DNA from: Haliclystus octoradiatus
Lineage: Eukaryota; Cnidaria; Staurozoa; Stauromedusae; Haliclystidae
Length of the DNA: 64,000 nt
Assembly: GCA_916610825.1 (NCBI GenBank)
Contig: OU744447.1
Span: forward strand, 14,057,751-14,121,750
Direction of reading: 5' to 3'
Shown here: in pieces, positions 4,780 to 53,426 of the stretch
Position numbering within the stretch: the first letter of the stretch is position 1
Layout of the letters: every line of letters starts with the position of its first letter
Translations under genes and position numbers: made by a program
Notes under the pieces: model-generated
The model's database searches: none
The model's input: only the letters and a program-made list of their open reading frames with translations
What the model was told of the DNA's origin: nothing

Positions 4780-8193
<3,414 letters not shown>

Positions 8194-8992
8194 CGTCATA
8201 TGCCTTGTTTGTAAGCGATAGATGGACAATATTGCTTCTGGATGCTTCTAGCTATACGTTTGGGCAAATCACTGATGTGTGGTCTATCGCAAAATATATT
8301 TTATATTTTATAGTTCCGCAGCGAATTGAGGGCTGACTGAAATAACTGTTTTAATTAATATAAATTGAGGTAAAACAATATAATAAAAACCCATTAATAT
8401 ATTGCCCGAGCAGCCGCGTGGAATATTATGTAAAAATAGTGTAACTGCTTGTAAAAGCATATGCAAATATATTTTGACTACATTTTTAATAACATTGAGA
8501 ATATAAAGTTTTAGTACGATCGTTTTGAATTATAAATATTGTGGTGTTGGTTATCCATTGTCTGTGTATTCGTTTGTTGACTGAATGTTTACGTGTTCTG
8601 TTTTTATCTGGCTAGGCCCACCCTGTTCCAATTGAATGATATTGCGGGAAATAAACCAATTGTTTGTGTCCTAGCCAGAAGGAAATTGCCAATTTAATAT
8701 TTAAAGGGCGAACATAATGAAAGAGTATGTTGATAATGAAATAATATAGAAGAACCCTTCAGCGCCATTCAAAATGATTATGCATTTCTGAGTTCAATTT
8801 TCAATATAGTTTGAATCATAAATGATAAGAGAAGTCACACTTGATATATTCGTGAGTTATCTATCTCTTTCGACAATTCAAATCTAAGTCAACAATACTT
8901 CTAGAAATATAATAGTTAATTTATGCAAATTTATATACAGCATTCCTTTATAATTTATGTACATTTAAGCAATTAATCAATCTCTATCAAAT
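8194..8992. other. Convergent intergenic gap
   Basis: Presumed 3' UTRs of the thioredoxin-like gene (+) and the orphan ORF (-). No further gene or repeat was recognised. Confidence 0.5.
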
Positions 8993-11065: not shown

Positions 11066-14000
11066 TTATAATTGTGATCCACTATGATTGGGGGTTTCTA
11101 TAGAGATAGAATAGTAAGTCCGAGATGATTTCCCAATAGGCGGGTCTGGACACCAATCCGTAAATATATCTTGTATTATATTACAATGAGGTCTCTGTTC
11201 AGGACTGACATGCCAGCATTTTAATAAGAAATCGTAAACCTTTTCAGGACAAGGCGAAGGACGGGATAACACAGATATTTCTTCGTTCTTATCTAGCAGA
11301 TCAAAATGTGATAATTTATCATAAGGCCAATCACCAAACGAGAATAGCTCCCAAACGAGAACACCAAATGAAAACGAGTCCGATGCTAGAGTATAGAAAA
11401 CATCCGCTTTTGTCTCTGGTGCCATCCATCGAATAGGTAGAGGACCAAGTGTATCATGCTCCATATAATCAGTCGGATGAAAGTAATAGCCGAACCCACG
11501 CCTTGCTAGTTTCACATGGCCAGTACGTGTGTTAATATAACAACTATGAGCAGCAATATCACCATGAACTAGTTGACGTGTATGGAGATAGGCAAGGGCA
11601 CTACCCAGTTGCATGCATACTGATAAAAATAATCTGTTTAGTCTATCTGTCAACTGAGGCTGTCTTAGTAATTTTAGTTCTAACTTTAGATCAGAGTATG
11701 CAGCGATATCATAGATTAACACAGGTCTTTCACAGTCCATTGCTAAGTATGAAAGACAGAGCAGGTTGGGGTGTCTCAGTTTACGCAATGATTTAGCAAC
11801 CAGTCCAAATGCAGTGGCAGATTGTTCATCGGTTGATTCTATCTTTTCAGCGACACAATTCTTTCCTCGTGACCTACGACATCTTTTTATTTTCACAGAC
11901 CAAAGAGTGGTAAACTCACCATGACTTAGCTTGTCTACATATGAAATGTCTTGTATTTTTAACTGAGTACATCGCTGAAAAATAAAAAATGATATCTGTC
12001 TGACTGAGAAGTATTTAACATCAAAAAATAATGATCATTATTAATCATTGTATACTACTCCAGAGGGGACTTTTGTCGGGGGGGGGGGTGTCATGGTCAG
12101 AGAGTTGAGACTCTAACATTTGATGTTTTTACGACCAAAACAAAGGAAAAGTTTAAAACTTTTGAAATCCTTCGACACTGATACCGTAAAATTTCTAAAA
12201 CATTTGGAAAAGGCATACTTTAAAAGCGGCACGTCCCCGTATAGCCGATGTATCGATGAAAGTGCTCCACGCGGGTTATTGATTCACAATGTACAGAAGT
12301 GCTACACGGAACAGTAATAGTCCTGTTATATACTAATGGTGCAGATTTGACGTTTCTCCGACTTTTAATGTCGAATTAGTTACAGTGTCTTGTACTGGAG
12401 TAATTGAAACTACCACATGGATACTGGAGAATAATTTAATGAATCGCAAAGTTATCATATTCTTACCGATTTAGAATCTGCCTCGTTTTCATTATTATTT
12501 GAAGGATGAAATATTACACTGCCCGTAGAAGGAAGCCTGTGACATTGCTTGCCACGCCAGAGGGCCACACAAATGGTTACCATTAGAACTAGTAGAATCC
12601 CACAAACAGCCGGTACCAAACAATACATCAGTAATTTCTTATTGGTATCTACAATCAAATCGAAATTATGAATAATTACAATGCATGTAATTGTTTAAAG
12701 TTCATTTATCATTTAGTATTAGATGTATCTTACCTCGTTTTTCTTCGTGATGAAGCTTTGCTTGGACGGTAGTGAAATTCAGAGATTCCGAAGTTAGATG
12801 ATCGAAAACTAAAAATGAAACGGATTTGAAATGGTATGACTAATTTCCCTTGTGATAAGGAAATAACAATGACAATTAATGATGATCAATTAGTTTGTAT
12901 ACCTGGGGTTTGTAGGGAGGGAGTGGTCTCTGCCTCGCTCTGATTGGTTGACAAAGGTAAACATGACGTTTCATTCTCAGGTAGACTCTGACAGTCTGGT
13001 GCCAAATCAAGCAAACCAAAGTCACCTCTTGATATTTCATCGTAACAAAATGACTGGTGGAAAGCAAGACAATCACGTTTGCAAAGCCTAGGCCGAGGAC
13101 CCGTGTCAAGAGATGTGCCACACGATTGAAACATATGGAAACAGAGAACAGCCAAACCAAGGGTTTTGCAGCTTTTACTCATTGAAGTATGAGATTCAAC
13201 GGCCTCGATCTCCGATAATAGTTGTCTCTCAGCCAAGTATTGTGGACTGTGATTATATTCGAACACTGAATTATCGCTGGCGTACTTTTTGAATACTCCA
13301 TCGCATACCTTACCAGAGTAAGTCCGACAATCCCCAAATCTGCAAGAAAAAATATCCCCAAATAGTTCAAGATACAAGCGAAGAAAAACAACTCACTGTG
13401 ATAGGAGTTGCATCACTCTACTTACTTATTTCGGTTTGATTTTAATTTATTTTTCTTGTTCGCAACCCTCCTTGCGGTGTTTGTGTCTGCAGAAACAAAT
13501 TATATGGTTTACAAGTGATCGTCAAAACAACAAAAAAGATTGCAGATAAAATATCTCAAATTAAAGACAACACTCACTGTTTGAATTTGTAGATCCAGTA
13601 TCTTGCAAATGACGTATTTTCACGTTGAATTTATCTAACAAGATATTATACATGACACTAGTTTATAAATTGAAAATAAAATAATAGCATATATATATAA
13701 TTAATAATGATGTCATGGTAATGATGGATACCTTTAGATGGATGTGATAGCCTCGTTGTGCACGTTTGGTTTCCGTCAATATAATTCATATGACAAGTGT
13801 ATTCACCGTAGTCTCGATTCAATGTCTTCGAGACAACCAATACTGCTGTCAATCTATAGATAGAATCATAACGTAATCATCATCATCATCATTTATTGCT
13901 TTATTCAGAATAAACCTGGTAAGCTGTAAACTTTTTTCACAGGACTTATGTTTCAAGATCTATTGCAGACAAGACATGCACGCGACAGGTTGAGAAAATC

Positions 14001-17000
14001 AAAAGCAATATCATCTGAACGAGTTTAGCATTGTTGCGGATTGATTCTTGATAATAAAAGATGATTAAATCTGTTACAGCTGCATCACAAGTAGCAACAT
14101 TTAAGTGATAGCGTTACCACATTACAGAGAATAAGAGAATACTGCGAAAGAGCAGAAGGAATTCATCTATAAGGCTACCGTCGTGCTTAAGTGTTCTAGT
14201 AGCCTGTATTTGACCATCAATCAATCAGTCAACTATTATACAGCACATCAAAGTTATCACAACTGGGCGAAATCGATGATCCCAGATACCCTCAATTATG
14301 AGATGCGCTTACCGTTGAGGTGTCTTGCGCAGTAACTTTGTTTTGAATCTTTTGCGACCGCTCGAGATGATCTTTTTGCCTTTGTACCACGTGATTTTAA
14401 AATCTCTTTTTGAGTTAAGATTGTTCGCATGAAAGTCACATTTTAAGAAAGCTTTTCCTCCTTTTCTACTCGAGTAATGATGAGCTCTTGCTATGTAGGA
14501 TCAATAACAACAACAAAATATTACTCAGAGCATTCACTTGAGCGATGTACATTAAGGTCCACCGAGAGGGGGTTAAATGAGGAAATCCCCAGGGCCCGAA
14601 ATTGTTATCGTCGGCCCTATGTACATTGTACAAGAACAGGAGTCAAACTCCAACTCCAGCAGGAGTATTTATGTTTAAATAGGAGTCGGACTCAAGTGAA
14701 CTTTTGCCAGTCAGGAGCAAGAGTCTAGAATACAATCTCTTGCGATTTCTTCACACACGCTGCAAAATTGAAAATTGTCTGTTTATTCCAGATAGAGGCT
14801 AGATTGTATCTTCTTTCATTATTTATCAGTAGCTTATTTTCCGATCGTGTAGCTTCTTTTGTAGCTTTACTGAATTTCGGGTTGAAGTTCGAGCTAAGAG
14901 CTGGAGTCGATGTTAGAGTCTATTTTTCTCTCACATTTCGAAGCACTGAGGATTGTGAGTCAGGTGCTTCTATTAGGACTTTATTTGGATTCGGAGCTTC
15001 TAATGATGGTACATGCGCAGTGACATACCTGGCAGTGATGAAGAAGCAGCGTGCGTGTTACCATAAATACCAGGGAGTGGCCAGCACGAGTTCTTTGCAG
15101 TTTTCATTGGTAATGATTGACAATTGGGCATGAACTTTTGCACACTTGAAATTGAACGGGCCATGAGAAACTCTTTTCTGCATACGAAAGATTGCAATTT
15201 AAGACAGTCGTTTCTACAAAAGGTTTGCTGAGATGCAATGTTGCAAGGGGCGAAGACATGGCGACAAACGAGCATTTTCGCGGACGGCCAGCATCGATTT
15301 GATAATGTCTTTGATTTGTATGCTAAATGATATAAATAAATAATAGATATAGCCTCGAGGCCAAAGATGAAAGACTCTTTCTAATATAGCCCTTTTTCCT
15401 ACATTTCCTACAATAAATATAAAATATCTTTTCAATACAGAAAACCCGTCAAGATAAGACATTCATACAACGTTCTAATAAATTTGATTAATTTCCTAGA
15501 TTTCTAGATATTTATCTTAACCAATAGAAAATTACTAATTTATAATGTATACGCATGAAACTGAAAATACCGTGCGAAGTACAGAGGTCTGTATATAGGA
15601 GTTTAATGGCTGTTCTCTCTTTCTCTTCATAAAGTTTCAAAATGTTCAGACTCGTGGGTCTAGGCAGTTAATTAATAGCCTGCGTCCAGACTAAAACGTT
15701 TCTGAAGGAAAAGTGTTTTGTTTCTACTTATTCTATTTATCCACTCTCGACATCCTTATTGGGACAGTTTGGGGTTCTTTTGATGTAAATTGTTCTTGGT
15801 TAGTATCAATTAATGTTGTAAATTTTCAATTTCAGGAGAGGTCAACTGCGTTTACACTTTCCTTCAGAAACGTTTTAGTCTGGACGCAGGCTATTAATTA
15901 ACTGCATATAACCACCGGGCAATCTCCTTTCGAGCTTGTCTCCCTTAGGGAATAGGGAACATTCACAATTGACATCAACAAGCGACAGAGAGGAGGTTGT
16001 GTGACAGTTGACAATCTGTAAGTTGAATGCTCAATTGTAACTCCAATTACAAAGTTGATAAAAGGGGGAGGGGTCCAACCGCCCTCCAACGTCGACTGAA
16101 AATTGGTTCATGTCAACTGTGAACGACCCCTAATTGGAGCTATCGTAGAACATAAATTAGAAAATAAAAAATTTGGAAAAAAGATCATATGAAGAAATGA
16201 TATAAGAACTGACCAGATGTTAGCCAAGAGTTGATCTGTTTCTCGATTAAATCGTGATTGCTTCCTATCATTAGATGAACTGAAGTGTTCATGAAATATT
16301 CGTTGCATATGCCACCTCCATAAACTCTGCATTCTTTGTTGCTACATAAGAAAGGAAAAACAAAGTGTAAGATGAATGATAAAATATATATACATATACA
16401 TATACATCATGATATGTAGCAGCAGACAAGTACTTGCTTCTGACCATTGTACTACTCAGTGAACAAGGGACTGACTTCGCATGTTATAGCTATAGGGCAG
16501 CTATGTTAAGATGAATTATAATCAATGTGGCGAAAGACTCATAGCGTGAAAAAACATCTGTGAAGTACAAGAGTGTCAACCGAAGTAGTAGTGAGCAATG
16601 CATTCGCAAATAGTATAGACATAACCCAAGTCAATAGTGTTCAAAATATGTATCACGGCAAAGTATGCATCATTTTATTTATATAAAATAAGTATTTTCT
16701 ACTCTTAAAACTATCGACGTGAGATCATTATCATGATGATTGTTCTAATAATTGTTAAGAAATGATGTATATAAGGAAAATGAAATATTTGAAATCTAAT
16801 TATACATATTTATAGCATTCCTATTAGTAAACTGTAGTGGCAATCGTTACAAACTTTACGCAAAACGCAAAGCCACCAAAGTCGTAGCCTTCTTGGTTCT
16901 CAATGTCAATTTACAATGATTGAATTACTAATCCTTCTATAGGTTTAAATAATGTATTGATGAAAAATATTTCCACGGTTTACCTTTGATTCTATAATTT

Positions 17001-18646
17001 AAGTCATGGTGTATTTAAGTCTGCAAACTACAAAAATGGCGTAATTTTTACTTCGATCTGGGATTTCCTTGATTTTGTATTAAACTGCCCTGAAAGGGGT
17101 ATTTAAGGCCAAATCTCGCCGAGAAAAAAGAGATTGGATAGGCTTATACATATGTGGTTTGCGCTCCTACCTTGCTAAAATAAAATTGCGCTTCAGGCTA
17201 CTCAGCTATGTTAAATTAAAAAACAAATTCGCCTGACAGTTCAATACGTTTCTCTATTAAAAAAATAAAATTCGTTCATAGTTTTAAGTCATAAAGCTAG
17301 ATCTAGTCTCTTTATTTTCTCAGCGAGATTTGACCTAAAATACACGTTGATGGCAGTTTACACCAACAAGGAAATTCCAGATCAAATTAAAAATTACGCC
17401 AACGTAATTTTCAGACTCGAATGCATCATGTATTAAATTATAATTTCAATGGTTTTTTCCACTTTAAATCGTAATTCGTTTAAGCTAAGCACCCTGCTCG
17501 GCTGGCGCTACGGGTAAAATTACCAGGAAATGCCATTTGAATGCGTCGACCGATAATTCCGAGCAGCTAACTGTACATTTCACTTGTTATCTTCAGAATA
17601 TCTACACAAACATATTTTGTGATATGTACGTTGCAGTATAGCTGGTAGTTTTTTACTTGAAATAATCGTTTGTTCCCGCTTTCGGATCTACGTGCTATAC
17701 GTGACTGCATCTCTATGGCAATAAAGAGAATACTATAATGTGGCTAATTGGCACCAAAGTGAGGTTTAGTAAGCACGATGCCGGCTAGCACGTGCAAACT
17801 TTGAAACATGCAGAGTAATCTATCTAAATACACAGATTAACATTGATTTCATTTTGAATTCTTGAAAAGGACACTCGAAATCAGCATTTACGCAACAGTG
17901 ATAAACTATTGTCTATTGAAATTGTTAAGAAATTCTAGAGATGTAACAATGGCTCTTATGTACCGTTTATAATCCCTTTCGGTGTAAAAAATCTGTAGTA
18001 GTGCATATATTATTTTATTTTTGAAATCAGAAAGTAAAATAATCTATATTGCTTCTTTGACCAATCGCTAGATACAAGCTGATACTATATGGTATTCGAG
18101 GATGACAGCATTTTGTCTGTCTGACTGATAAAAACAATCTTATCAAGCAGTTATTGACATATCACTCAGCAAAACAAACAACAAGCGTTGGGCAAACATC
18201 TAACAATAACAAAAACCAACAATGTAGCAATACAACAATACATGATGTGTACCTTGATGAACTGCCAATCAATGTAGAATGTAGTTGTGTTGATAATAAT
18301 GATGGTGAGATGGAATTAGAATCATTGTGAAGAGATGCAGCCATTCCTAAATCAACAAGACAGAAACATTAGGTCAATATGACGTAGTGGCCTAACTTCC
18401 TTCCACATAAAGAAAAACTACAACAATTTAATTATAAAATATTTTAATATGGTCATTTGAATTTTGTTTGATGAAGATTAACAATCGAAATGTAGTCAAG
18501 ATTGATTAGAATCTCATAATATCAAAAGCTGAACTTTGTATATTTGTGAAAACATACAGAATAAGAATTTCCTTCTCATATAGAGTCTCACCTTGCCAGC
18601 TGAACTTTGATGCAATCAATGCTACTACTAATAAATACACCATCAT
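11066..18646 (-). CDS. Receptor pseudokinase: SP-Fz-Ig-Fz-TM-tyrosine-kinase-like (ROR/MuSK-related)
   Basis: Twelve phase-consistent exons, 5' to 3': 18646-18592, 18346-18253, 16341-16214, 15322-15029, 14490-14313, 13853-13732, 13634-13578, 13486-13426, 13339-12903, 12808-12734, 12648-12467, 11974-11066; 863 residues. Residues 1-16 are a signal peptide. Exons 3-4 encode a frizzled CRD with all 10 Cys (ECRVYGGGIC ... CRHVFAPC ... NCQSLP). Exons 5-6 encode an Ig domain (LKCDF, ITWYKGKK, RDYGEYTC). Exon 9 holds a second 10-Cys frizzled CRD. The TM (CLVPAVCGILLVLMVTICVAL) is in exon 11. Exon 12 is the whole kinase-like domain. APE (RWMAPET) and SFGVLVWELFSFG are kept, but the Gly loop is SHGEFTTLW, HRD-loop reads HGDIAAHS (Arg to Gly, Asn to Ser) and DFG reads RRGF, so catalysis is unlikely. 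There is no kringle. ROR is Ig-Fz-kringle and MuSK is Ig repeats-Fz; this order matches neither. Probable Wnt-type co-receptor (inference). An alternative exon-4 donor at 15071 keeps phase. Confidence 0.88.
13873..13975 (-). mobile_element. LINE 3'-tail fragment with (GAT)n end
   Basis: On the minus strand it reads CCTGTGAAAAAAG..TTTACAGCTT...TTCTGAATAAAGCAATAAAT followed by GATGATGATG. This matches the tail at 5771-5832. It sits in an intron of the receptor gene. Confidence 0.6.
14632..14998 (+). mobile_element. Truncated copy of hAT-like family B
   Basis: Shares ordered blocks with the complete copies at 23933-24344 and 54797-55207 (GGAGTCGGACTCAAGTGAA, TGCCAGTCAGGAGCA, TCCAGATAGAGGCTAGATTG and the closing CTCACATTTCG). 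The terminal CAGAGG and CCTCTG are not present, so the ends have eroded. Receptor gene, intron 4. Confidence 0.65.
15664..15905. mobile_element. Fold-back MITE with ~52-bp inverted arms
   Basis: The left arm (15664-15718, GCAGTTAATTAATAGCCTGC...) and right arm (15853-15905) are reverse complements over about 52 bp with a single one-base length difference. About 130 bp lies between the arms. Receptor gene, intron 3. The arm ends are themselves AT-rich palindromes (TTAATTAA), so the exact border and TSD cannot be read. Confidence 0.8.
16412..16650 (-). repeat. Diverged relative of the 260-bp satellite unit
   Basis: On the minus strand this aligns end to end with the repeat unit of the array at 40390-41410 (GTAGCAGCAGACAAGTAC, GAACAAGGGACTGACTTC, AAAACATCTGTG, GCAAATAGTATAGACA), with many substitutions and small indels. 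It is preceded by a TA-rich tract (16383-16410), as is the array. Receptor gene, intron 2. Confidence 0.85.
17037..17401. mobile_element. 365-bp fold-back MITE
   Basis: The ends TGGCGTAATTTTTA and TAAAAATTACGCCA are inverted, and pairing continues with mismatches over about 50 bp on each side. A second inner inverted block (AAATCTCGCCGAGAAAA / TTTTCTCAGCGAGATTT) suggests arms over 100 bp. No clear TSD. Receptor gene, intron 2. Confidence 0.75.
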
Positions 18647-32919: not shown

Positions 32920-35900
32920 TCATTTTTCTTTTGTAGTTCTACCAAGAATGTAATCAGCTTGCTGAAAGACCTGAAAACAGATTAATCAAATAAATGTAGA
33001 AGATACATAACGTAAGGCACTTAATTGCAGGATCAAAGAAGGATGGAAACACGCTCGTTATTCCTACCGGTAGAAAATTAACAGTATCGAATTGTGCTTC
33101 AATAAAACGTCGTATCGAGAGCTGGAATCGAAAGTTTCCGAGTTGATCCATGACTTGAGAATATAAGCATAGGTCTTGAAAAGCACTGGGATATCGCTCT
33201 CTTAGTCTGCATATATAATGAAATCGATAGCAATTATGAAGTGAAGAATGATAGTCATGCATACATTCAATTATCAATTATGATATAATCGACATACAGT
33301 AATAAGGCCTGTTGTGATGATTTCGATGCGACTGCACTGCTTAGATTAACCGTAAGACGAATAACCTCCTTTTGAACGGGAGACAGATCTTGATTTGCCT
33401 GTGTTATGGTATCCGCTTTTGACGTAGATGTAGATAAATGTTTAGTGTGATCCAATCTGTGATCCGTATTTATTGCAGCAGGGTCATTCTCTCTTTTAGG
33501 AATATTCATGCATGCGAGGCAAGATGGTTGGTCGTGTAGGAAAGTATCGGTGGAATTGGGAGTGTCGTCACCGCCATTGGTATTCCGCCGGGCACTCTCC
33601 TCCTTGACAATCATCATCTGCTTGCAATAGTCTGCAGGGGATCCTTCAAATTTGTACGGTTTGACCTACAACCAACATGTAAATATATTGAGAACAAAGA
33701 CATCACAATACAAAAGTTAGGGGGAAATAGTTCAATGTTTGCTTACCGCTAAAATCTCCAGCATGTCACATGGCAGGCACCTTCCGACGTAGTTTTCCGT
33801 GATAGCTCCTGATGTGTCGGTCGTAGCAGTAGCAGGTGATGATCCACCAGGGCTCATGGTTTCCACCACGGTGCTCAAATTACTTATGGAGCTAGCAACA
33901 CTAAACTGCCGACGGTGTCCAGGGTGCGACAGTACAGCAGGGGATGAGCCGCGCCTGTCAACTACCCCAACACTGTTCATATCATAGTCACGTGTTGTCC
34001 CCCGCCCACTGTTGGACGAAGAAGATGATCTACAAGAAAGAAAGACATAACGTAATTAGCTAAAGGGATAATTACGATCAGACATGAGATTAATATAAAT
34101 ACAATACATTGATGACAACCCACTTATTTCTGGTTCTCCTGCGTCGTTGGTGTCCACGTGATCCGTGTCCATGGTAGCTGCTTGTGATTCGCCGTAGCTT
34201 AGTCTCCATCTCCTTTTTAAATGCTCTCTGCTTTTGGAGTGTGCTCCAGACCGTGTAACCATATGCATCACGTGACGAAGTGAAGGAATCATTCAAATTA
34301 AACGTAGGCTCAGTAGTTGTACAATATGCACCACGTGGACTAGGACTGAGAGTAGAACCAGACCCTTTAAAGTACGCTCTTCTTAATTTCTTCTGCCTGA
34401 CAGGTGACGTTGAAGAACCCGCTTCATGCTCAAAGCTACACGATCTATCCCTATCACTATTGTTACGCATTCGTTGTTGCAATATTTTCGTTTGTGAATT
34501 GAACCGATTGCGTGCCACGTCACTGTTGCTATGAACTCTGCTTTTATTGTTATGGTTGCTAACGATTCGTATTTCTGATTGGCCAGAATCACTTTCTTGG
34601 CTACTGTAACTGCTGGTCTGTGAGCCAATCGTCGTGCTGCTGTCTAAACGTGAAGATCTACCATCCATCAAGTTGCCGTGAAAAGATGTTCCAGAAAAGC
34701 TAGCACTACGGTTCTCATGTGCGTATGCCGCTGTCTCCCCGTTCTCTGTCAAACTGACACTTCGGAATCGAGATTCATCGCCAGACACGTGCAATCGTTC
34801 AATGTCACTGTTGATTGATGCGCATGTATTTCTTCGTGTCACTTGTTTACTTGATTCGAAGTCACTACCATCACTGATTATACTGGCTGTTCGTCGATTT
34901 TCAAAAGAGGTTGCAAGAGTTGGCTCGCCAGATGATTTCCGTATGAGGCTCTCACTGCTTTCGACTTCACGGATTGGAACAAGGGCCTCGCTGTCCCCTC
35001 TCATGGAATCCAACATACGAGGTTGTTCAAGAAACAAACTACTAGTGTTTGATTCAATACTTGTTCCTATAGTTGAATCATTAGCACTAAACTCAGTATC
35101 ATCATCTGATAGTTCTTCCTCGCCAAGATAAATACCAGCACGATCAAATATCTCACGTGTTGGTTTTGTTTTGGCAGCATAACTATTATCTTCATTTGGT
35201 AAATGATCAAATTTAAAAGTATTACCAAGTGAACTAATATTAGGTTCTGTATTACTATGATGCATTTTAACATCTCCATTGCTGAACGTACTATTCATAG
35301 ATGTACCAAGGAAACCAGACATATTTCCATCGTATGACTCACCGCCCATTGAAAATGAGAAATCAGAATTAACAAGTCTTTCCAATCCTGCAGTTAAACT
35401 TACAGAACCACCTTCACGTAGACGTCCTTCATCATCGATGTCAAGTACACGTGATGTGAAATCAGTTACTAACGCATCTTTCTCTTGTTTCTCGTTCTCT
35501 TCTTGAGGCGTTCGTTTGCCACCTTTGCGTCGTCGCGTTTCTTCGTTGAACGTAATACGCGTGTATTCGAATGCTTTAGATTGATAAATGTTCGGTTCCT
35601 CATTAACGTCGTCATCACCAAGATAAACGCCACCAAATCTGTCAGCATTGAAACTAGATGAAGCAGCACCACCAGCATTACCATCTTCTCCTTCGTCGGT
35701 TTCATCTTCATTGTCATCGTCATCAGAATTAAAATCAACGGGTAAATAAGGCCCCATTTCTTGTTCAATTACAGGCCACTGTGTACCACCCTTATGCCTA
35801 ACACATTCCCAATTGAGATCTTCTAGTGTGTCTGCACCTTGGGACGTTTTAGCAATTAAACACAATACATAGATACATGTCCTAAAATGAGAAACACGTT

Positions 35901-38900
35901 TAAATAATAAACAACACTTCAATCAAATATGCTTTCATAAATGTATTATCAATTCCATAATGTGTGTTACCCTCGGATTGAAAATACTTCGCTATCAGAA
36001 GAGAGACGAACAATTTCTCTAACGATGTCAACATCATCCAAAACAGTTGAGATCTGTTGAGCCTCATCAACAACTGAAACACGACAACGAGGTAGGATCT
36101 GTGCTATACCCCATTGCGTTGAACCAATATGACCCTGGTGAATTGAAAAATCCCAAGAAACAAAATATATGACGAGTTAGAAAGATACGTCAAATAGAAA
36201 AGAATAATAAACAGGATTGCAATTCAACATACCAAACCCCAAAGAGCAGCCTTAAGTGAAAGAATTGAATCAATGGTAGATAGATCTGAATGTGTTATGA
36301 CACTCATCAAATCATTGATAATACCCTATGATGCACAAATGAATATCATCAGCAGCATTCAGCAACAACAACAATAGCAAAACAAAAAAATGATGACCAA
36401 TTATATACCTTCTCTTCTAACAGGGCAATGCCTGATCGATGTTGAGCTAGTTCGCCATACAAATGGGGGGCAACAAAAACATTCCGATTGAAAGATCTAT
36501 ACACGTGCAAAGAGAAGAGATTATCATCATGGTCAACATCCATCACGGCCCCTTTTTAATATCCCACTTTGCATAATAATAATATCCCCATAATTTGGTT
36601 TCCATTTCCTACTTTTCTAAGTTGGACTGTGTAAAATTTTCTTGGTTTCAAGGTATATGTTACTCATGATTTCAGCTAGGGCGGATTAGCTCAGATGGCA
36701 GAGCAACCGAACTTCAGATCGGATCATATCTGATCGACTGTGGTTCGAATCCCCCGAAGGTCAACTCAGCCTTGACTTTATCTGAAACATCAAATGAGTA
36801 CCATCTGAGGATGGCGGATGGAATGGTCCAGAGGGAATTGCATTGTGAGTAGCTGCGGCGCATCGCTGCGCATTGACAATCGAGACCTATCTGCCATGAA
36901 ATCTGTTGACATTGATCTGCAGTGTCGCGGCTGAGATCAACAAAGAGCGTTTAAAATCATTGCTCTCAGCAAAAAAAGCCACTCATCTAGAAATAGAGGA
37001 GTGGTACGGGTGCCTTCGGTAGGGCGACACCGTCTACATTACTTATTTTATGATTTTAGCTACTAAATCATGCTCGTGTCGAACTGATTTGATCTCAAAC
37101 TATATATGATTACTAACATAATTTGGGCTAAATACGATATTTCTTAAAAGAGTCAAAATAATTCCCCAGTGAAGGGTGAATGACAAATATATACCTTTCG
37201 TTTGAGCGTCGAATATAAGACCCATCTTGAGAGATCCTTTCAAATGATGTCAATGCTTCAGCCAATCCACCTTCAACCCATCGGACATACTCTGCGTTAT
37301 ACGTCTAACAAAACAAAATAATAACAGCGATTCAATGAAAATGTTCGGTTAATACGTTCATGTTCATCTTATGTGTACTTACGTGCTGCCATCGTTGTAA
37401 TAGTACATCAACGTATTCCATATCAGACAAATAAGAGAAACCACGTGATATAGAAAGAAACCTACGCAAAGATACATCACATGCAATTTAAATATTACTT
37501 CAATTACCAGGAGAGGAGGTATCAGAAGAAGTGATTGCACATTACATAACGAACTAATACATGTTATACAGTCATAACGCCTAACTAATGCATGCTATAT
37601 ACAATCATAACGCCTACATAATGCATGTTATATAGTCATAACGCGTAAATAATACATGTTGTATAGTCATAACGCCTAACTAATGCATGCTAGACAATCA
37701 TAATGCCTAGATAATACATGTTAAACAGTCATACCTTATCAACAATCGCATTCCTTTGTCACCAAGATGCAACAATGATGGTCGGATCTCAACCAGTCTC
37801 TGAAGGTTTGTCTAATTGGAAGGTAAGATAAAAAAAAATCAGAATTATGCTGTTGCACGTGAAAGAATGCGCCATATAGGGTATAAACGTCCATACAAAA
37901 ACAACATTATTTCCAAACTACCTCGTCCTCACAGGCTTCTTCTAAAATTGTGATGGCTTCGTTTACAATTTCTTTATCTTGATCGTAAAGCTGGTGATAC
38001 AATATTCAATATACCACAACTACACATAAGGAATATACATATCATACACACGAATTCAAAATTTATCACATTTTTAGCTTTTACCTGATTAGTTAACAAT
38101 TCCATTCCCCAATTGCTAAAGTATGGTGCCTTTGCACGTAGCAAGACTCTTAGAAAACGTGTACCATAGAAACGGCAACTCTAGAGAAATAGCAGAAGAT
38201 ACATGGTATATACATATACATATATATTAATTAAATGGGAACATGAATAATCAACACATAGAAAAATGATGTAGATACAAATCATTGTACATTAGTAGAA
38301 ATATAGCTAATGAAGTTGTATTGGTCTGTACTTTGGACTGACGAAATTTGATTGACATTTATTGGTATTGATTGTGATACTTCACACTAGCCAACTAACC
38401 AATCACATCGGTGAAACAAGGTAGGCCCATTCTATGTATTGTGAATAAGGTAAATAAGTCAAACTCTACTGAAACAACACAGCTACTATCAAACTTACCA
38501 ATGATGGCGATGTTAATACTTTAGACAATAGAACTCTTGCAATTCCATCGCGACCATAATCAAATGTACACACTAACAATTTGGCAGCACTCTCTCTCGT
38601 TGACATATTACAGATCTCAAGAGAGCTGCAATTAAAATGATCATAATGAACAAGCTATCCACAAATATAAGTTAGCTGGCCCATGATAAAACTACTGAGA
38701 ATCGACGTACTATTGAAATACACCAGCAGTTTTCTCCAGAACCCTCGTGCCCATTGTTGAAGATGATAATTTACCAATGAAAAGAAAATAGTATTGACTG
38801 AGTGTATCCGTGATACTGCTTGTGCTAAACACGCCAGTAACAGTACCAGTTGATGTTGCCTAAAAACAAAACAGAAGGCTGGTTAGCAACAATATATTTC

Positions 38901-50265: not shown

Positions 50266-52457
50266 TTCAATTTTTTGATAGGTATATGAGCAATAATAGA
50301 GGTGCGTGGCATTAGAATTGTTTGAATGTTATGCCGCTTCCTTGGAATTGTTGGTTCTCTCTTGCTGCCATGTTGGATTTAGATCTTCAAGAGCCTGGGA
50401 CATAATAATCATCAAGACTGTACACAGACTGATGACACAGTCTTGTAATCGACTCTTAATCGACTATGTATTTATCAAAACCATGTCAAAACCCATGGGT
50501 TTGGAACTTTGGATGGACAATGAGAAAAGTAGCCCTTCATTCTCTTCTTATTATTTATTTTTTTTCTAAGATAACGAATGGTAAGCGATATTTTCATCAG
50601 AATTGCTTTTATAGAGAAAATAAGTTTTACAATAATTGATCTAAAAAACTTGTTTCAATTAAACCATGTTGAAACGATGAGATACACATCAGCTAGTGCA
50701 GTAATAAACATACTATATGGTATTTCATTAAATTTTTTTGTCAAATGTGAAGCACCTGTGATTGGATTTCTTACTCGGTCTTCCCGTATATCTTCTTTTC
50801 CCCTGAACCGCATCGTGTTTAATATCATATATATGTGGGACTAATAGAAAATGTCTATATCAGCTTAGTAATTTGTAGCATTTGAATGAGGAGGATCTCC
50901 CGCTGTTTGTTACGATAAAACTAAAAAAAAAACAAGTTACAACATGTATGTATGTACTGTAGATGCATTTCTGATTGTTTCAAGAGCAGATCGAGATCCT
51001 GGCAACACCATGCTGATGTGGACCTGCTATAAATTTATGTACATTTTTATATACAAAATTCAAATTTCAGCTTCAACAGGATTAGCTATATAAATTATAT
51101 ACATGTTTGATAAATTTTATATTTGTAGATTGTCTCTCATGCTTTTGTGTTGATGTTTTTTCTCAAGTAAATTTGAAATTGTCTCAGTACATCTTTGATA
51201 GTATCTTGTATGGGCTATAATGATCAGCTCTGATAATAATGCCTATACACCGCTATACCCATCATGCCAATCCTCTTTTAATTGTAAACTTTTGTTAACG
51301 ACCACCCATTTTAACGAGCAAAATTAATCTTGATTCCTGTCGGCTGCATGTCATGAGCGCCCTCTTGCATGTGTACGTAACACTGATCTATCTAATAACG
51401 TATTATATAGATCAGTGGTACGTACATACAGCGCACACAGAATTGATATTCTACTGATCAGATATAGATAAATAGTTAGGTTTGGCTATTTTTGGCACTC
51501 GTATATAGTACTGCTCTTTGCAAAAAAGTTCCAATAACTTATATAAGTTCTCTAGAGTTAAAAAGAAGTCAAAAAGGAGATCTAAAAAGTTTCAGAATCT
51601 GAAATGAGTGATGATGAATGATTACAATTGCGGCCTCGTGGGTATCACTGTGTCACTGATGAAGGTATAAGCGGTGTGCATAAGTGTTCAATGTTCGAAT
51701 GAACGGTTTATATTTCTATCCTAATTGATTGGCCAGACAGAGGGATACTTATGATTATAGATAAGAGCAAGACGACTATTTGAAATAAAACATTCCTTCT
51801 TTGCAAAGGTCGGCGTTGATTTTGTCTTCAATGGATTCCGCCATCAAAGTACCACATTTAAATACTTCAAAATGTTACAAACATTAATTGCAGCTAATTT
51901 TAAAACAAATACCCAATGCTAGAATGAAGATATTGATTATCCCGTGATTATTAGAGGCACCTGCTATACGTACAGTCTGTAAAGATAGAATTGCATAGAT
52001 GTGAAACTGACATGTGATTGAAGTGCGGAGGTTATATTTGTAGAAGAGATCAGTGATATGATTCATCATAAATTTATTACAATAATATACGCTAATCATG
52101 AAACAATAACATCACCTTGACTATGATATTATTATCTTTACATATGGCACGTTCAAGTTTATATATTTGACTTTGGTGTGACAGCTGGTGACCCACTTTG
52201 GGTTTCCTCATCAAAGTTTATTCTCCTGGCTAGAGAGTGGCATACATCAGCAGCTGCTCCATGTGATTGTATTTACATATCTACATCATAATCCTACTTC
52301 AATTGAACATTTGATTGTTTTTCAAATCGATCAATAGACTTATTTTAAACTATGCGTAGAACACAGCTACTCAAGTACTGTATTGGCTTTGCTCATTTAA
52401 TTAAGTAGCTGAGTCGATCGATCAGTCTAACAAGATACACGACCTTTACGTTGAGTT
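50266..52457. other. Intergenic: divergent RICTOR / GPCR upstream region
   Basis: 2.2 kb between the RICTOR start (-) and the GPCR start (+). Apart from an inverted repeat at 51373-51425 I see no gene. The ORFs at 50306-50569 and 50578-50844 have no domain. Confidence 0.5.
51373..51425. repeat. 19-bp inverted repeat, short loop
   Basis: GTACGTAACACTGATCTAT (51373-51391) pairs with 51407-51425 with one mismatch across a 15-base loop. Shorter GCGC motifs flank it on both sides. It could be a tiny MITE relic. Confidence 0.75.
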
Positions 52458-53426
52458 ATGACTTGCTTTCCTGTTATATGGGCACCAACAAGTTTATCTT
52501 ATTTCACAGCACTATCATGTTGTCTATTATGTCTACCGACTGTTATTGGCAATTCATCTATATGTCTCGCTGTATTCGTTGATCCTCTCAGAAGACTTCG
52601 TACACCTTTTAATATTTTCTTGGTGAATTTAGCAATCAGTGATCTTATCGTAGGAACATTTGTGTTACCATTTTATGTTGTTGCTCATTTGATGGAAGCA
52701 AATAGATCATTACCTGTGAAATTGTTTGTACCTATGCATTTAATTAAATTCGCTTCAACATTTGCTAGTGCATTTAGCTTGGCTGCTTTGTGCTTGGATC
52801 GTTATGCTGCAATTGCTTGGCCAATGATGTTTAGAGTAAGACTTAGCTGGCGTCGATGTACATTCATTTCTATTGTGATTTGGATATTAAGTCTGTCGTT
52901 ACCGTGGTTTTATCTGACTATGGATTATATTGATTATTTGATGGTTTATGCGCATGTTGCATTATTAACCACTATGCTTGTTTTAGTTGTAACGTATTCA
53001 CGTGTTTTTAAAGTATTATCAAAACGTTCACGTTGTGTATCAGATGCTGATATACAGATGCATTCTGTCACTCACCGACGATCAAGTTTACATAAACACG
53101 AACACAGAGCCACAACAACATTTCTTGTGATTTTAGTAGCATTCTTTTTCACTTATTTTCCTGCCTTAGTGATTATCTACATCTTACAATTCTGTGATGA
53201 CTGTTCGTGTGTGTTTCGACACGTCATGAGGGATGCCCAGAATATTCTTATTTTATCAAACAGCTGCGTCAGTCCTGTACTGTGCATATTTCGTTTAAGG
53301 CCACTTAGACGAGGAATTATAAGACTATGGAAAACATACTGCTGTGCAATGCCGTGTAAATTTGTGCAGAAGCAACCACACACGCTACAGGGCCCCGCAG
53401 TAATTCTTCCAAGTCGGTCGAGGTGA
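52458..53426 (+). CDS. Orphan class A (rhodopsin-like) GPCR, intronless
   Basis: 322 residues in one exon with seven hydrophobic segments: TM1 about 15-40 (GNSSICLAV, N32 = 1.50), TM2 (NLAISDLIVG, D62 = 2.50), TM3 ending LDRY (R115 = 3.50), TM4 (W142 = 4.50), TM5 about 162-182, TM6 (AFFFTYFPAL, P235 = 6.50) and TM7 (NSCVSPVLCIF, P273 = 7.50). G-protein coupling at the plasma membrane is expected from the fold; the ligand is unknown. There are several departures: position 3.25 is Phe90 and ECL2 has no Cys, so the usual TM3-ECL2 disulfide is absent; NPxxY is SPVLC; CWxP is TYFP. Loop 3 has three Cys (CDDCSC). The N-terminal tail is very short and has no signal peptide. The start is the only Met before TM1. 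An AATAAA lies 127 bp past the stop. Confidence 0.92.
   Translation: MTCFPVIWAPTSLSYFTALSCCLLCLPTVIGNSSICLAVFVDPLRRLRTPFNIFLVNLAISDLIVGTFVLPFYVVAHLMEANRSLPVKLFVPMHLIKFASTFASAFSLAALCLDRYAAIAWPMMFRVRLSWRRCTFISIVIWILSLSLPWFYLTMDYIDYLMVYAHVALLTTMLVLVVTYSRVFKVLSKRSRCVSDADIQMHSVTHRRSSLHKHEHRATTTFLVILVAFFFTYFPALVIIYILQFCDDCSCVFRHVMRDAQNILILSNSCVSPVLCIFRLRPLRRGIIRLWKTYCCAMPCKFVQKQPHTLQGPAVILPSRSR

Follow-up and report, generated by a model that had tools for sequence, protein, structure and literature searches.

A predicted pseudokinase receptor with two ROR/MuSK-class CRDs around an Ig domain in the staurozoan Haliclystus octoradiatus

Receptors of the ROR family (ROR1, ROR2 and CAM-1) have a CRD of the ROR/MuSK class and follow an order with one CRD and a kringle; fly RORs lack the Ig domain. 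Mammalian MuSK has no kringle, carries three Ig domains before its CRD and has a short tail with a PDZ-like end, and NPxY is its juxtamembrane motif. PTK7 (CCK4) and RYK, which have degenerate kinase domains with an altered DFG, belong to the Wnt/PCP pathway; the ectodomain of PTK7 consists of Ig repeats only and that of RYK of WIF. In the passages considered here, a 2014 paper describes human ROR1 and ROR2 as pseudokinases (their membrane-bound ectodomain is by itself enough to suppress Wnt3a signalling), the CAM-1 kinase as active, unlike those of human ROR1/2, and the Nematostella ROR as predicted to be inactive (PMC4100928).

On the minus strand of the window (the whole stretch of 64,000 nucleotides of H. 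octoradiatus DNA that was analysed), a gene at 18643–11066, which corresponds to about 14,068,816–14,076,393 of chromosome 2 (OU744447.1) and is called here the CRD-Ig-CRD gene, is modelled in 12 exons from the genomic sequence of this one species, on the basis of splice sites, phases and homology (Table 1). The computed structure bears out the 12 exons, with the kinase domain in a single one, that an earlier note on this DNA had proposed: all 11 introns have GT/AG ends and a single consistent frame runs throughout, and the joined product of 862 amino acids has the order signal peptide, CRD, Ig, CRD, TM and tyrosine-kinase-like domain, which that note had also read from the first CRD onwards. 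Pfam matches two parts of this product to Fz (3.9e-15); it also detects PK_Tyr_Ser-Thr (1.1e-47) and, at 1.2e-4 to 0.016, a number of Ig models, each under its curated cut-off. The Ig domain, weak in Pfam, has the Cys-Trp-Cys pattern and the intron phases of the ROR Ig. Taken alone, the open stretches of the second CRD (13392–12886) and the first CRD (15380–15000) give Fz at 1.2e-9 and at 4.9e-7, the latter slightly under the cut-off, and a genome-wide Fz profile search marks both CRD places, with the second exon of the first CRD again under the cut-off. Exon 2 was chosen on splice score and phase alone and further Met-started hydrophobic stretches are present upstream of the first CRD, so the 5′ end of the gene is uncertain. 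Homology backs neither exons 7 and 10 nor exon 8, which is demanded by phase; by codon-usage score, the model exons are not distinguishable from random stop-free pieces, and exons 8 and 10 are not best-scoring in their own frame. As judged from its sequence, the gene is an intact single-pass receptor gene. The ectodomain of the product contains an odd number of cysteines (23). Among the matches listed in the open-licence literature, by titles and abstract openings, no description of an Fz-Ig-Fz kinase receptor was found, in keeping with the earlier note, which knew of no family with two CRDs around an Ig domain.

Table 1. Exons of the CRD-Ig-CRD gene, with positions in the window
Feature	Position	Strand	Content, phases and basis
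Exon 1	18592..18643	-	Start codon (or 18646), signal-peptide-like MVYLLVVALIASKFSWQ; hydrophobic N-terminus; donor phase 1, CAAG/GTGAGA (/, exon end); other starts possible
Exon 2, candidate	18253..18346	-	Short linker; phase 1 to 2; top splice score among phase-compatible open exons, without homology
Exon 3	16214..16341	-	First CRD (Fz1), N-terminal part, Cys 1-2; phase 2 to 1
Exon 4	15029..15322	-	First CRD (Fz1), Cys 3-10; phase 1 to 1; joined Fz1 best PDB match ROR2 CRD, 3.7e-10
Exon 5	14313..14490	-	Ig first half (Cys, Trp); phase 1 to 2
Exon 6	13732..13853	-	Ig second half (DYGEYTC); phase 2 to 1
Exon 7	13578..13634	-	Post-Ig short linker; phase 1 to 1; splice sites and phase, without homology
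Exon 8	13426..13486	-	Basic linker ahead of second CRD; phase 1 to 2; phase-required, strong splice sites, without homology
Exon 9	12903..13339	-	Second CRD (Fz2), single exon with all 10 Cys; phase 2 to 1; best PDB match MuSK CRD, 6.2e-9
Exon 10	12734..12808	-	75 nt, phase 1-1, at slot of ROR kringle exon; without homology
Exon 11	12467..12648	-	Transmembrane segment and juxtamembrane; phase 1 to 0; hydropathy peak; 182 nt vs 179 nt in ROR
Exon 12	11066..11974	-	Whole tyrosine-kinase-like domain, 24-aa tail ending SGSQL, stop codon; Pfam 1.1e-48, 166 bits

Both CRDs are of the ROR/MuSK class. Pfam and a Cys alignment confirm that each of them (Fz1 and Fz2) has the full 10 Cys that had been claimed, at the same 10 columns as the CRD of the ordinary ROR of this genome (own ROR). 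All five PDB matches of Fz2 at E values up to 0.1 are MuSK, ROR2 and Ror2 chains, the MuSK CRD being the nearest to it (35/114 positions); Fz1 matches the same five chains at 3.7e-10 to 0.005, and its list has 11 rows, of which the other six, at 0.037 or higher, are unrelated molecules. In a computed tree built on 13 of the genome's 15 Fz places (the CRDs of L009 and L011 left out), Fz1 and Fz2 group with ROR2 and MuSK with support of 100/99, against seven Frizzled/sFRP-type CRDs of the same genome. Kinship of both CRDs with Frizzled or sFRP was ruled out by this tree, in which they lie outside those seven. In a smaller tree, without three ROR-type rows that lack a kinase and five rows of Frizzled/sFRP type, Fz1 and Fz2 are mutually nearest by path, with the fork not settled and no decision from the AU test; it is plausible that one arose from the other by duplication. 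The earlier idea that the receptor could bind two lipid-modified ligands loses weight because neither of the nearest solved CRDs, those of ROR2 and MuSK, has a lipid groove, though the fly Nrk CRD contains a fatty acid (PMC11219042, in the part considered). Single-sequence structure predictions had mean pLDDT values of 44.0 (Fz2) and 36.3 (kinase), too low for use.

Own ROR is located at C2:1.365–1.380 Mb, and Pfam detects Ig, Fz, Kringle and TK in it, in the order Ig-CRD-kringle-TM-TK; its kinase groups with ROR1/ROR2 (98/94 in a 21-row tree, 89/95 in another tree, not resolved in a C-lobe tree). All 8 exon boundaries that were compared have the same computed phase in the two genes (Ig 1-2-1, CRD 2-1-1, TM start 1, TM/TK 0), the TM exons (both 1-0) are 182 nt in the CRD-Ig-CRD gene and 179 nt in own ROR, and the kinase domain is unsplit, in one exon, in both. 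The CRD-Ig-CRD gene departs from the ROR order in its additional CRD before the Ig domain and in the kringle, for which Pfam finds no match on the joined product and the slot of which is occupied by the 75-nt exon 10. Because the exon-phase skeleton is common to both genes, this points, at the matching slot, to the kringle loss that the earlier note had supposed. Some of this agreement in skeleton comes cheaply, because a CRD start in phase 2 and end in phase 1 are frequent among the ROR-type CRDs of this genome and phase 1 is frequent in extracellular modules. In a CRD-kringle-TM gene (L014) taken as a control, the TM exon is 1-1. The TK domains of the INSR, PTK7-like, DDR-like and C2:10.43 Mb genes of the genome are intron-split, and the kinase of its RYK candidate is apparently split.

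The kinase-like domain is predicted to be a pseudokinase. Its motifs are a Gly loop LSHGEFTTL, VAEK, Val in place of the alpha-C Glu, HGDIAAHS, and RRG replacing DFG; the computed loss of the DFG Asp, alpha-C Glu and catalytic-loop Asn supports the kinase-dead look reported earlier. The domain is much more degenerate than ROR kinases, resembles PTK7 and RYK in its altered DFG, and is followed by a tail of 24 aa, against about 140 aa in own ROR. The terminal SQL of the 24-aa tail is compatible with the class I PDZ ligand motif. The short tail with a PDZ-like end is shared with MuSK, as is the lack of a kringle, whereas the product has one Ig region (Pfam) rather than three, an extra CRD and lost catalytic motifs; no NPxY was found by eye in its juxtamembrane segment. 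From PTK7 and RYK it differs in having CRDs and no WIF match (Pfam, joined product), the single WIF match found in the genome being at C11:2.536 Mb.

In kinase trees of several samplings, the domain is a long branch without firm placement; in the 21-row tree it stands weakly with the C2:10.43 Mb kinase (54/84). AU tests on 13 rows give p = 0.028 for a group of the domain, ROR1, ROR2 and own ROR, p = 0.042 for a pairing with own ROR and p = 0.038 for one with MuSK; a group with both ROR and MuSK gives 0.07, which rises to 0.375 when NTRK1 is added to it. The C-lobe gives 0.039 for ROR/MuSK and 0.092 for ROR alone, and with 21 rows neither ROR/MuSK (0.155) nor own ROR (0.119) is rejected, PTK7 and RYK being cheaper in likelihood. 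Classification of the receptor by its kinase domain alone failed, and AU outcomes vary between samplings. In separate domain trees of the kind that the earlier note suggested, the ROR/MuSK-related lineage it proposed is supported for both CRDs, which side with ROR/MuSK (by tree and PDB matches) and not with Frizzled/sFRP; it is not supported for the kinase domain, which is unplaced and does not join ROR/MuSK in these trees, with some AU tests leaning against it.

With moderate confidence, we regard the CRD-Ig-CRD gene as a diverged pseudokinase receptor of the ROR lineage that gained a CRD, lost the kringle and is probably a non-catalytic Wnt co-receptor or antagonist. The order of events that we infer would begin with an ancestor of the ROR plan (SP-Ig-CRD-kringle-TM-TK), in which another CRD cassette of the ROR type, together with the linker before it, would have been inserted ahead of the Ig domain, possibly through tandem duplication of the Ig-linker-CRD unit (phase 1 at both ends) and subsequent loss of the first Ig. 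The kringle would have been lost or have shrunk to the short 1-1 exon, and the kinase domain would have drifted into a pseudokinase. As to ligand, partners and function, which we likewise infer, the two CRDs may touch Wnt or Wnt-Frizzled complexes via protein surfaces, with the pseudokinase as a putative scaffold; by analogy, the receptor would most likely act as a non-catalytic co-receptor or antagonist of the Wnt pathway.

A possible but less probable reading is a cnidarian (at least staurozoan) family of double-CRD pseudokinase receptors outside ROR, MuSK, RYK and PTK7, which would have come from a local radiation that shuffled the ROR-type CRD exon cassette among several receptors. ROR-type CRDs occur in this genome in the settings CRD-kringle-TM, CRD-kringle-CRD-kringle-TSP1-TSP1-TM and Ig-CRD. 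The loci at C7:19.87, C7:25.39, C5:28.50 and C2:15.37 Mb have ROR-type CRDs (three of the four are in the CRD tree, C7:25.39 being absent from it), and the CRDs at C7:19.87 and C2:15.37 start in phase 2 and end in phase 1, as in the CRD-Ig-CRD gene. Unlike that gene, two of these loci have kringles and one has TSP1; a home-made profile found no tyrosine kinase in the 29.7 kb surrounding each of the four. Split kinase pieces lie 23–25 kb away from the C2:15.37 CRD. If the reading as a new family is true, a chain with two CRDs and an odd Cys count, which could leave one Cys free to tie two chains by a disulfide, would form a multivalent Wnt co-receptor or antagonist without catalytic activity.

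Also less probable is a chimera, in which an ectodomain of the ROR type, made up of the Ig and two CRD cassettes brought in by shuffling, would be fused to a pseudokinase from another family such as PTK7/CCK4, INSR-like or RYK, giving a scaffold receptor with Wnt/PCP input. The shuffled settings of ROR-type CRDs elsewhere in the genome are consistent with it, as are the matches of the unplaced kinase, for which INSR and PTK7 outscore ROR1 by BLAST and are the best matches by phmmer too. AU tests reject none of the placements with PTK7 (0.376 on 13 rows, 0.265 on the C-lobe, 0.347 on 21 rows with the PTK7-like row of this genome), INSR (0.429 on 13 rows, 0.452 on the C-lobe) or RYK (0.278, 0.103 and 0.332 on 13 rows, the C-lobe and 21 rows). 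However, the long branch by itself accounts for the failed placement, the kinase is unsplit, in contrast to the split INSR, PTK7-like and apparently RYK kinases of the genome, and the phase-0 intron before it lies near the ROR position, behind a TM exon of almost equal length.

A decoy or ligand sink, binding Wnt-like ligands with a dead kinase that has no signalling role, is improbable. In its favour are the joint loss of several catalytic residues, the shortness of the tail and the ability of human ROR ectodomains, by themselves, to suppress Wnt3a signalling (PMC4100928, in the passages considered); against this, the kinase-like domain has kept an open frame and can still be recognised (Pfam 166 bits), which points to constraint, and the C-terminal SQL matches the class I PDZ ligand pattern. 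Improbable, too, are two adjacent genes or alternative products misjoined by the model, exons 1–4 encoding a short secreted sFRP-like protein ahead of a separate MuSK-like, kringle-less Ig-CRD-TM-TK receptor. In favour of this, linker exons lack homology support, a stop follows 9 codons beyond the donor of exon 4, with the result that an unspliced transcript would yield a secreted single-CRD protein, and a hydrophobic stretch of 28 codons, with its Met at 14552, is found a little upstream of the Ig exon. Against it, exon phases continue without a break, and that stretch is out of frame with exon 5, the own frame of which has a stop just upstream. Of the donors of the stretch, those at 14525 (phase 1) and 14515 to 14509 (phase 2) would give introns of <40 nt to exon 5, and the last (14470) lies inside exon 5; the phase-2 donors could join only exon 6, which would leave half an Ig.

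The family of ROR-type receptors senses Wnt mostly without kinase activity, and a two-CRD, kringle-less variant with a degenerate kinase would help to show which components are essential to it. In the part considered of a 2021 survey (PMC8662651), the Ror and MuSK kinase families are dated to bilaterians, whereas a Nematostella ROR is already listed in the 2014 paper (PMC4100928, likewise in part). A cnidarian genome with both a standard ROR (Ig-CRD-kringle-TM-TK) and a double-CRD variant bears on the age of the ROR plan.

The receptor gene is modelled as 12 minus-strand exons (18643 to 11066), which join in a single frame. On the joined product, Pfam identifies two Frizzled-type (Fz) stretches and one tyrosine-kinase (TK) domain, and hydropathy is maximal at the N-terminus and at residues 505–530; several Pfam Ig models match the Ig region, each below its cut-off. 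These data support the Fz-Ig-Fz-TM-TK order proposed in the earlier note. The two cysteine-rich domains (CRDs), Fz1 (exons 3–4) and Fz2 (exon 9), each retain 10 of 10 cysteines in register in the alignment, as had been claimed. Exon 2, a linker, is a best-guess candidate, and exons 7, 8 and 10 are based on splice sites and phase; codon usage scoring was of no help in confirming exons. Further Met-started hydrophobic stretches are located upstream of exon 3 (among them those at 18243, 17809, 16603 and 16410); another, at 14552, precedes exon 5 and is out of frame with it. The 5′ end of the model is therefore provisional. The genome searched comprises 33 contigs (261,861,806 bases; C1, C2 and so on below), with the window on C2 (38.98 Mb, chromosome 2).

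Features in the window and related loci in the H. octoradiatus genome
Feature	Location	Strand	Remark
Rictor-like exon	window 34093–35922	-	RICTOR_V 4.6e-6, barely above its cut-off
Rhodopsin-type GPCR frame, single exon	window 52455–53423	+	5.1e-28
Very long TAA/ATA trinucleotide repeats	window 5390–5520 and 6190–6760		Read by eye; seemingly intronic in a plus-strand gene, window ~4800–8200 (by eye)
Staurozoan ROR gene, order Ig-CRD-kringle-TM-TK	C2:1,365,423–1,380,249	-	Pfam: Ig, CRD, kringle (7e-18), TK exon (3.5e-80)
CRD-kringle-TM gene	C7:19.866–19.870 Mb (L014)		No kinase in the stretch examined
CRD-kringle-CRD-kringle-TSP1-TSP1-TM, further kringle upstream	C7:25.386–25.399 Mb (L011, L018)		Receptor-like candidate gene; second double-CRD arrangement in this genome
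Ig-CRD gene			ROR-type CRD
ROR-type CRD beside retroelement-like ORFs	C2:15.37 Mb		ORFs read by eye

Both CRDs are of the ROR/MuSK type, in agreement with the kinship suggested earlier. The best PDB match of Fz1 is ROR2 (3.7e-10), followed by MuSK (8.9e-8), and that of Fz2 is MuSK (6.2e-9), with ROR2 at 5e-4; neither match list contains a Frizzled, Smoothened or sFRP chain, and the last 6 of the 11 rows for Fz1 (0.037 and up) are unrelated molecules. A 16-CRD tree, which omits L009 and L011, two of the 15 Fz places found genome-wide, separates nine ROR-type rows from seven rows of Frizzled/sFRP type taken from this genome (support 100/99), with no fork settled within the ROR-type group. Fz1 and Fz2 are identical at 36 of 121 aligned positions and are mutually nearest by path in an 8-row tree, on which the AU topology test admits Fz1+Fz2 (0.535), Fz1+ROR2 (0.349) and Fz2+MuSK (0.222). 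Each has a phase-2 intron at its start, its first Cys as the fourth full codon, and phase 1 at its end.

The exon skeleton matches that of the ordinary ROR gene of this species, with phase agreement at 8 of 8 compared boundaries (splice sites picked by hand). Phases are 1-2-1 for the Ig domain (178 + 122 nt in the window gene, 163 + 131 nt in ROR), 2-1-1 for the CRD (Fz1, 128 + 294 nt; ROR, 146 + 321 nt) and 1-0 for the TM exon (182 and 179 nt; in ROR, the hydrophobic exon that follows the kringle and precedes the TK). The TK domain is unsplit in both, on an exon starting in phase 0, 15–16 residues ahead of the first Gly-loop position. Internal introns are offset by 6 (Ig) and 5 (CRD) alignment columns, in loosely aligned stretches. 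Between CRD and TM, ROR has a 237-nt 1-1 kringle exon and the window gene a 75-nt 1-1 exon, which supports the proposed kringle loss.

Part of this skeleton is generic, because five ROR-type CRDs (Fz1, Fz2, ROR, C2:15.37, C7:19.87) share a phase-2 start and a phase-1 end; C5:28.50 is the exception among the six whose start was examined, a count that leaves out the two CRDs at C7:25.39. An internal intron is found only in Fz1 and ROR among those five. Phase 1 is frequent in such modules, so what is informative is the agreement at phase-2 boundaries, in the TM exon (1-0) and in having a kinase domain without introns. The TM exon of the C7:19.87 Mb gene, a control, is 1-1. Introns split the kinase domains of four genes: INSR and a PTK7-like gene, which group with INSR at 100/99 and with PTK7 at 97/97, respectively; a DDR-like one (named by eye); and the one at C2:10.43 Mb. 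The kinase of a RYK candidate also appears to be split; its pieces lie 11–14 kb from a WIF match at C11:2.536 Mb, on the same strand. The C5:11.67 Mb kinase matches profile positions 29–258 within one exon, and a Src-like kinase (L025) is likewise unsplit, so this feature also occurs outside the ROR plan.

In the alignment, the kinase-like domain retains the Lys of VAEK, the catalytic-loop Asp (HGDIAAHS) and APE, and its Gly loop reads LSHGEFTTL. The alpha-C Glu is replaced by Val and the catalytic-loop Asn by Ser; the DFG position reads RRG, or GFG if shifted by two by eye, and the Asp is missing both ways. The domain is thus a predicted pseudokinase under the usual criteria, consistent with its earlier description as kinase-dead-looking. 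DFG Asp is also absent from tyrosine-kinase-like domains at C5:11,674,686–11,675,417 (L032; LSNTAA) and C4:15.18 Mb (L031; PTK7-like, VAFLSL), so the genome holds several predicted pseudokinases. The ROR kinase groups with ROR1 and ROR2 (98/94 in a 21-row tree, 89/95 in another kinase tree), a fork not settled on the C-lobe alone; because its DFG reads WFS, it may be inactive too, in which it would resemble Nematostella ROR, whose VAIK Lys is replaced by Val (excerpt of PMC4100928).

On the simplest history, the window gene descends from a ROR-plan gene by addition of a second linker-CRD cassette and loss of the kringle and of catalysis. An Ig-linker-CRD unit with phase 1 at both ends may have been copied in tandem, and subsequent loss of the first Ig would leave exactly the CRD-Ig-CRD order. 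It is rather unlikely that a ROR-type ectodomain was instead joined to a pseudokinase of other origin. The kinase has a long end branch (4.35 vs a median of 0.84), its AU outcomes vary with row set, and its BLAST bits are higher for INSR (115) and PTK7 (111) than for ROR1 (106), MuSK (102) and the species' own ROR (99; lowest, HalSrcB, 69). The 21-row tree places the kinase weakly with that at C2:10.43 Mb (54/84), flagged as a meeting of two long branches.

A home-made kinase profile detected no kinase in the 29.7 kb around each of the four other ROR-type CRD loci. Split kinase pieces (C2:15,346,038–15,347,729) lie 23–25 kb downstream of the C2:15.37 CRD (C2:15,370,504–15,370,983) on the same strand, possibly forming with it a third CRD-kinase gene.

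Among the matches listed (titles and abstract starts of open-licence PMC papers), no description of Fz-Ig-Fz-TK was apparent. The window gene, identified in the one cnidarian genome searched, seems to be a variant on a known receptor plan, in an apparently undescribed order. According to excerpts of PMC11219042, the ROR2 CRD is without a lipid groove, and WNT5A signalling requires this CRD, which is also minimally sufficient for it; the MuSK CRD likewise is without a groove, and fly Nrk carries a fatty acid. Excerpts of PMC4100928 describe extremely weak activity of human ROR1/2 kinases, an active CAM-1 kinase, and suppression of Wnt3a signalling by membrane-bound human ROR1/2 ectodomains. The ectodomain of the window product has 23 cysteines (10 per CRD and 3 in the Ig domain), a count from which one may be left free for a covalent dimer. 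By analogy, the product would be a non-catalytic Wnt co-receptor or antagonist, in which two CRDs per chain may increase avidity.
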